NCBI GenBank assembly: GCA_013215295.1
Contig: JABSOZ010000023.1
Location: 1 to 64,000, forward strand
Direction: 5' to 3'
Length of the DNA stretch: 64,000 nucleotides
From: Colwellia sp.
GTDB lineage: Bacteria > Pseudomonadota > Gammaproteobacteria > Enterobacterales > Alteromonadaceae
Below are positions 11,107 through 52,271 of the stretch, piece by piece. The position numbers and the translations under genes are program-made. Within the stretch, counting starts at the first letter, position 1. Every line of letters starts with the position of its first letter. Below the pieces are notes generated by a model. The model made no database searches, was not told the origin of the DNA, and saw only the letters and a list, made by a program, of their open reading frames with translations.

Positions 11107-11183
<77 letters not shown>

Positions 11184-11205
11184 ACTTCGCTAAAGTATAA
11201 AAAGC

Positions 11206-11349
11206 AGGTCGTCAGTTCCCTTTTCATAAGATATGGGCTCCGAAAACCAACTTCACTTAAGTATAAAATTATCTGTATAGAAGTTCGTCAGTTCCCTCTT
11301 CACTAGATAAGGCTCACAAAGCAACTTCACTTAGTATTAATTCTGATAA
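11206..11349 (+). repeat. Two decayed copies of the tRNA-fMet 3' end (rtT-like)
   Basis: The tRNA segment GGTCGTCAGTTC (11152-11163) recurs at 11207-11218 and, as GTTCGTCAGTTC, at 11283-11294. The tRNA end plus flank (GGCTC...CAACTTCGCTAAAGTATAA) also recurs as GGGCTCC...CCAACTTCACTTAAGTATAA and GGCTCAC...GCAACTTCACTTAGTATTAA. The two relics share an insert in the T arm (CCCTYTTCAYWAGATAWG) absent from the intact tRNA, so they are closer to each other than to the gene. Periods are 55 and 76 bp. They cannot fold as tRNAs. E. coli tyrT carries comparable rtT repeats. 11350-11417 holds nothing else recognisable. Confidence 0.75.
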
Positions 11350-51513: not shown

Positions 51514-51831
51514 GTGATTTTAGCCACTAGAATTATTGAAATATATAATCACGAAATAAGTATCGGCAATAAACGCTGTGGGTTTGAAACTAAGTTAATT
51601 GTTAATATTGAGGAACAAGTAAGGGACGAACCACATCACGATTCACTCAAAGAAATTCAAAAAGGGGTCAGCCAGGGATTAAAATGGAATCAAATACATG
51701 TTTTAGGTGAGGCATAATCTGCAAAAAAAATCGCTGATAAGCTAAATGTATGTGATCGATATGTTTGCCAATACATAAGACTAGCTTACTTATCTCCTGA
51801 TATTAAAAACGTGTTTTTAAGGGGGATATAA
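51514..51831 (+). pseudogene. C-terminal relic of a site-specific recombinase
   Basis: The frame from GTG 51514 runs 67 codons to TAA 51715-51717 and continues in the same frame for another 37 codons to 51831. The joined text (DSLKEIQKGVSQGLKW...GEA, stop, SAKKIADKLNVCDRYVCQYIRLAYLSPDIKNVFLRG) matches the C-terminal helix-turn-helix segment of large phage/rhizobial-type recombinases (..VSERYVSRLLPLAFLAPDIVEAIL..). The 5' catalytic part is absent. It lies next to tRNA-Ser, a common integration locus. The family assignment is from memory. Confidence 0.5.
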
Positions 51832-51942
51832 ACAAAAAAGGCTTAACGTGGAGAGGATAAATCTAATCTTTGTAGCATACATCCATATGATTTTTAAACA
51901 CTTAGCTCGATTAACTAAGCGAACTCAAGGACAGAACACACA

Positions 51943-52120
51943 ATGTGGCGGTGAAATAGAGGTTTAAACTCTACTCGAAGGTTTTCTGCTATTAACCCAT
52001 TATCTAACTATTATAAATAGCAGAAAGCAAAAAACCGCTAATCTTTCAATTAGCGGTTTTTTTAATGTGGCGGTGAGATAAAGATTTGAACTCTACTCAA
52101 AGGATTGGCGCTATAAACCC
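51943..52120 (-). repeat. Two decayed copies of the tRNA-Ser 3' end (rtT-like)
   Basis: The last 28 bases of tRNA-Ser (52182-52209 on the plus strand) recur at 52068-52095 (27 of 28) and at 51946-51973 (25 of 28). Past that point the two relics resemble each other (CTCRAAGG...GCTATWAACCC) and not the gene. Periods are 114 and 122 bp, and each tRNA end is followed by CATT and, for the gene and the first relic, by an AAACCGC...GCGGTTT terminator. A hairpin TTTCTGCTATT/AATAGCAGAAA (51983-52026) lies in the outer relic. Both fail to fold as tRNAs. Confidence 0.75.
52029..52063. terminator. Bidirectional terminator between tRNA-Ser relics
   Basis: AAAAAACCGCTAAT pairs perfectly with ATTAGCGGTTTTTT around a 6-base loop (CTTTCA), with A and T runs on both sides. 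It closely resembles the terminator after the intact tRNA-Ser, consistent with repeated duplication of the tRNA 3' end together with its terminator. Confidence 0.85.
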
Positions 52121-52139
52121 ACACAATAAATTAAACTCG

Positions 52140-52172
52140 AAAAAAAACCGCGACTCGTTAAAGTTGCGGTTT
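52140..52172 (-). terminator. Terminator of tRNA-Ser
   Basis: AAACCGCGAC (52145-52154) pairs with GTTGCGGTTT (52163-52172), one G-T wobble, 8-base loop; a run of T follows on the minus strand. It begins 10 bp after the tRNA 3' end. Confidence 0.85.
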
Positions 52173-52181
52173 CTTAGAATG

Positions 52182-52271
52182 TGGCGGTGAGATAGAGATT
52201 TGAACTCTAGGACGGGATAAACCGTCGCTGGTTTTCAAGACCAGTGCTTTCGACCACTCAGCCATCTCACC
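52182..52271 (-). tRNA. tRNA-Ser (TGA)
   Basis: A 90-nt type II tRNA with encoded CCA. The acceptor stem is GGTGAGA/TCTCACC, the anticodon stem CTGGT/ACCAG with loop CTTGAAA, giving anticodon TGA (plus-strand TCA at 52235-52237). The long variable arm (CGACGGTTTATCCCGTC) is typical of serine tRNA. Confidence 0.95.

Follow-up and report, generated by a model that had tools for sequence, protein, structure and literature searches.

Tandem tRNA-Ser 3'-end copies behind a Colwellia tRNA-Ser(TGA) gene look like a variant of known tRNA-tail arrays

In a 64,000-nt stretch of a Colwellia sp. contig (the window), one intact tRNA-Ser(TGA) gene is followed, on its own strand, by two copies of its 3' half in which part of the variable arm has been replaced. 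This array looks like a variant of known tRNA-tail arrays rather than a set of mobile-element scars. With a probability of roughly two in three, we regard it as a tandem tRNA-tail array akin to the rttR (rtT) repeats of E. coli tyrV, and as a by-product that was multiplied and homogenised.

ARAGORN called the intact gene on the minus strand and found no further intact tRNA-Ser copy within the window array (Table 1). Along the gene strand, the order is tRNA-Ser, CATT, hairpin, relic 1, CATT, hairpin, relic 2 and CATT, so that the tetranucleotide follows all three 3' ends and a hairpin follows the gene and relic 1, with none after relic 2. The tRNA 3' end, including CCA, closes each unit, and the relic units of 114-122 bp carry no cargo. 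A repeat search recovered three tRNA-Ser 3' ends, spaced 122 and 114 bp apart, and two terminator-like repeats. A preliminary description, made from the letters alone, had reported just this: one intact tRNA-Ser with two 3'-end relics, in units of 114-122 bp with the tRNA 3' end, CATT and, in two of three cases, a terminator. Hairpin 2 was the only hairpin of the array flagged on this strand by a simple terminator scan; hairpin 1, which the scan passed over, is a putative terminator as judged from its sequence. Both relics sit behind a terminator-like hairpin, and no promoter-like site was found inside the array. Just past relic 2 lies a decayed open frame (51541-51860) with an HTH-like piece (Pfam HTH_23, E 0.083, sub-threshold).

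Table 1. Features of the tRNA-Ser(TGA) array and of the parallel tRNA-Met case in the window
Feature	Position	Strand	Remarks
Intact tRNA-Ser(TGA)	52182-52271	-	3' core (52209-52182) recurs downstream
Terminator-like hairpin 1	52141-52175	-	3' of gene; CATT at 52178-52181 before hairpin
Relic 1, altered variable arm	52096-52122	-	Left side tRNA-like, right side foreign
Relic 1, tRNA-Ser 3' core	52068-52095	-	27/28 identical to gene
Terminator-like hairpin 2	52029-52062	-	3' of relic 1
Relic 2, altered variable arm	51974-52000	-	
Relic 2, tRNA-Ser 3' core	51946-51973	-	25/28 identical to gene; then CATT, without terminator
tRNA-Met and two relics	11107-11340	+	T-arm side replaced; parallel case

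Each relic starts in the tRNA variable arm, continues with a segment absent from the gene (about 14 nt in the Ser units of the window) and then resumes the core. Between the two relics the 28-nt cores agree at only 24 positions, against 27 between gene and relic 1 and 25 between gene and relic 2, whereas the altered arms (52122-52096 and 52000-51974), which the gene does not have, agree at 20 of 27. The relics therefore look alike because of their common altered arm and not because of the core. The preliminary description, which had the relics resembling one another more than the gene, was thus right for the arm and wrong for the core, and it had drawn the relics too short, as they extend further upstream into the variable arm. 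The downstream similarity score of tRNA-Ser was 51, above all 200 shuffles of the downstream sequence (99th percentile, 20); therefore, the array is not a product of chance. A like arrangement had also been reported at a second tRNA of the window, and we indeed found relics behind the tRNA-Met gene at 11107-11183.

Behind tyrV of E. coli K-12 MG1655 lie three exact copies of a 19-nt tRNA tail, spaced 178 bp apart, in a region annotated as the small RNA rttR with the open reading frame tpr. The tyrT/tyrV rttR repeats are the classical rtT repeats. The window array has in common with them the tandem same-strand units directly behind a tRNA, the tRNA 3' end with CCA (an exact tail in the E. coli units) and the altered arm inside the unit. 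The two differ in that the E. coli units derive from tRNA-Tyr, have their T-arm interrupted by a long segment (as judged by eye) and bear the sRNA and tpr annotations, whereas the window has shorter Ser units with terminator-like hairpins between them and a short replacement in the variable arm. The Rfam RtT family had no match in the window, which places the array outside that Rfam family. On this view, the rtT repeats of E. coli would exemplify a broader pattern, open to genome comparison.

To survey all isotypes, we scanned five genomes from three families: the window genome, a draft of 52 contigs, and four single-contig genomes, of which G001 belongs to the same genus, G012 to the same family, and G042 and G039 to two other families of the order. 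Places matching the Rfam tRNA model were taken, all of them for the window genome and nearly all for the four others; the search scored 150 candidates per genome, and some tRNAs may be missing. ARAGORN genes and Rfam places numbered 45 and 46 in the window genome (G000), 73 and 72 in G001, 84 and 90 in G012, 84 and 84 in G042, and 90 and 90 in G039. At a fixed score cut-off, same-strand copies of the tRNA 3' end were detected downstream of 28 of 229 locus-isotypes, as against two upstream, none in reversed orientation and none in shuffled downstream sequence. The downstream copies were distributed over the window genome (5/39), G001 (5/45), G012 (6/49), G042 (4/43) and G039 (8/53), and involved Ser, Lys, Asn, Met, Thr, Val, Pro, Arg, Asp, Leu and Gly isotypes. 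One of the 28, 'Asp_atc' in G039, is probably a mis-called Lys relic, and both upstream matches, which are likewise in G039, may stem from this mis-call. The scan, which had been called for in the preliminary description, supports its proposal of a general process that copies tRNA 3' ends. Tail arrays are present in each of the five genomes scanned, and they bear on genomic-island mapping and tRNA annotation. An assembly artefact, conceivable for a draft in 52 contigs, has next to no chance of being the explanation: each of the four single-contig genomes (G001, G012, G039 and G042) contains such arrays, which refutes it for the phenomenon.

Relics also adjoin tandem arrays of intact tRNA genes. 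In G001 or G012, the tRNA genes for Lys, Asn, Met, Thr and Val stand in tandem as several intact copies, with relics next to or between them; the exception is Thr in G001, with a single copy. The tRNA-Met genes of G001 form six tandem intact copies, four of which are each followed by a relic with the T-arm side replaced, and one Asn relic in G012 keeps gene positions 1-74 of 76. As for Ser, four intact tandem tRNA-Ser(TGA) genes are present in G018, and relics stand beside or between intact tandem copies in G085 and G119. These observations are in line with simple decay of a once intact tandem tRNA-Ser array, which we nevertheless consider unlikely at the window locus. The window has one intact tRNA-Ser, and its units have no 5' half, unlike tandem intact arrays; the anticodon arm of the gene was seen before none of 56 Ser units (by eye, up to 45 nt upstream). 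Moreover, the altered arm, mostly recognisably the same, recurs in 12 genera, whereas independent decay would scatter the damage. The preliminary description had set its proposal against relatives in which the relics were intact tRNA arrays; the relatives bear this out by half, with intact arrays for Lys, Asn, Met, Thr and Val in G001 or G012 and for Ser in G018.

The recurrence of the Ser relic was established by running a model of it against 196 genomes of the family. The family is probably Colwelliaceae, judging by how related proteins are named. The best 150 matches place altered-arm relics in at least 12 of the 52 genera; every kind of altered arm is counted here, and the arms of G164 and G098 differ strongly from the others. 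In a separate search, matches confined to query positions 116-150 or about 227-262 resembled generic terminator hairpins and were excluded from the relics. Relic cores mostly follow the gene of their own genome. The T-stem of the gene was readable in 23 genomes and has the form GAG/CTC in 20 and GGG/CCC in three (G098, G154 and G164). In G098 and G164, the relics carry their own GGG/CCC form in full, and those of G164 also their own acceptor letters; in G154, part of that form is found in three of the four relics, and the fourth has GAG/CTC. This pattern suggests tandem duplication with homogenisation, as unequal exchange or conversion among adjoining repeats would give it. A 120-bp mobile unit that moved as a whole is disfavoured, given that spacers and terminators differ between genera and that the cores mostly follow their own gene. 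In one of five sampled g22 genomes the relics lay above the gene level, which would fit transfer too.

The number of units per locus ranges from one (G002) through two (the window) to four (G008 and G154). The window locus is orthologous in G004 and G001, in which the neighbouring MFS gene product is 95% and 94% identical, respectively (175 residues compared); two full relics are present in each of the three species, with a truncated third in G004. A synteny scan of 25 of 80 loci found no tRNA near the MFS gene in named genomes. G004 has a further relic (C100:52043-52095; L088 15044-15096) on a contig whose tRNA-Ser array is about 9.3 kb away and for which no PF00589 match is listed.

Partial tRNA copies are readily read as footprints of mobile elements, and the preliminary description had offered, as its second option, repeated integration events whose att sites remain. 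The relics would then be displaced 3' ends (attR) of elements that entered the tRNA gene and were later lost. The tRNA is a real integration target: G001 carries, directly behind a tRNA-Ser, an island of 27.9 kb with a tyrosine integrase (Pfam Phage_integrase) that starts 77 nt behind the tRNA, and the genes flanking this tRNA correspond to those at the second tRNA-Ser locus of the window genome. About 50 nt behind a relic in G005, a decayed gene related to this integrase begins, and the relics may accordingly serve as attachment sites for integrases. However, the copy made by a real element looks different. At the far end of the G001 island, island sequence is followed by an unaltered 28-nt core and then by the tail, a hairpin and further relics; since this array lies beyond the unaltered core, it is older than the island and points away from mobile elements. 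In the window, by contrast with the unaltered tRNA 3' part expected of an integration scar, the arms are altered, the cores are likewise changed, and the short units are cargo-free. No integrase gene was found at the window tRNA-Ser site, the sole PF00589 match listed on the contig being at 590-1198. The displaced 3' parts of G187 and G160 start within the anticodon arm, have a normal variable arm and are followed by arrays; with no element identified at either site, these cases are only suggestive. In other genera, 20 of 21 loci had usable downstream sequence (up to 1.5 kb), and inspection by eye of the one or two longest open reading frames of each revealed one that was integrase-like and lay on the opposite strand. 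Integration scars were thus rejected as the main explanation, because the copy at the real G001 island looks different; we hold them to be very improbable, and the att-site half of the earlier proposal has no support for the window relics.

According to the accessible part of one report on prokaryotic tRNA gene fragments, those of archaea have been traced to integration and CRISPR activity (PMC9897764); tandem tail arrays are not mentioned in that part. As in the partial tRNA genes of integrated elements treated there, the 3' part of a tRNA is repeated nearby in the window, and the same tRNA is used by the G001 island. The window differs from them in having no element between the copies, several units and a common altered arm, and in G001 the array predates the island. 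Arrays of this sort were undescribed in a literature search that covered titles and abstract openings, with subscription journals mostly outside it. Two side observations concern integrases. The match at 590-1198, within a 340-aa open frame near the window start, is a strong tyrosine-integrase match (PF00589, E 3.4e-37). Behind the tRNA-Ser relic array at L269, an open reading frame on the opposite strand resembles, by eye, an integron-type integrase.

On the favoured reading, that of a tandem tRNA-tail array, the 3' part of the tRNA gene with its tail or terminator would have been copied beside the gene with loss of the working arm. Unequal recombination or slippage between direct repeats would subsequently have added and removed relic units, while exchange would have kept the relic 3' end roughly in step with the intact gene. 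The array would mainly be a by-product and not a dedicated RNA, possibly acting as a set of backup terminators and, at times, as a target of integrases. We infer the recombination step, this order of events and the by-product status; the anatomy, the orientation bias, the occurrence in several isotypes and genomes and the agreement of most cores with their own gene were observed directly. Tandem duplication is favoured by the excess of downstream over upstream copies, the varying number of units, and the adjoining intact copies and relics. On the other hand, turnover at the orthologous locus is small, with two full units in the window genome, G001 and G004 alike, and one G154 relic departs from its own gene. 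In addition, the replaced arm was 69% identical between genera (shuffled, 41%), as against 55% for the spacer (shuffled, 45%), in 274 pairs from one unit per genome in 25 genomes of 12 genera; neutral drift would not favour the arm. This difference hints at constraint in a biased sample, for which the search model itself contained the arm.

The conserved arm would be expected if the relics were selected tRNA-scaffolded small RNAs with a new loop, derived from tRNA copies, E. coli RttR being one of them. In agreement with this, rttR is annotated as a small RNA in E. coli. By contrast, covariation in 20 Ser relics was not above that of shuffles (82.9% versus 82.2% of cells paired; 125 of 500 shuffles were as high), several units of the window genome have a weakly paired arm, and the window relics lie behind a terminator-like hairpin in an array with no promoter-like site. 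We therefore prefer the by-product reading, with a modest chance of function, as covariation gave no support and the array showed no promoter-like site; selected small RNAs as the explanation of the window array appear very improbable.

Relics of other isotypes provided a further common feature. In many non-Ser relics, the loop of the D, anticodon, variable or T-arm is replaced by 7-25 nt, mostly the same within an array, and 7 of 19 arrays, of different isotypes, have the motif CTCTT in their replaced segments. None of 2000 trials, each scored by the best 5-mer of the shuffled segments, reached 7; the motif had been noticed beforehand, so that the test is post hoc, and the Ser segments do not contain it. 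For the test, 24 segments were trimmed by hand from 19 of 27 arrays, the other eight being omitted as repeats of sister arrays or for want of a clear segment. The arrays with CTCTT span different tRNAs and families (relic arrays of G001, G012, G039 and G042). Such sharing is not predicted by tandem duplication and speaks for an RNA function. It raises the possibility, which we regard as doubtful, that tail arrays form a general, recurrent gammaproteobacterial class, in which tRNA copies have their loops exchanged for short segments, often containing CTCTT, and are then amplified. This would occur either through a common, hitherto unrecognised mutational mechanism at tRNA hairpins or through selection of tRNA-scaffolded small RNAs with a target-pairing loop, of which RttR would be the first known.
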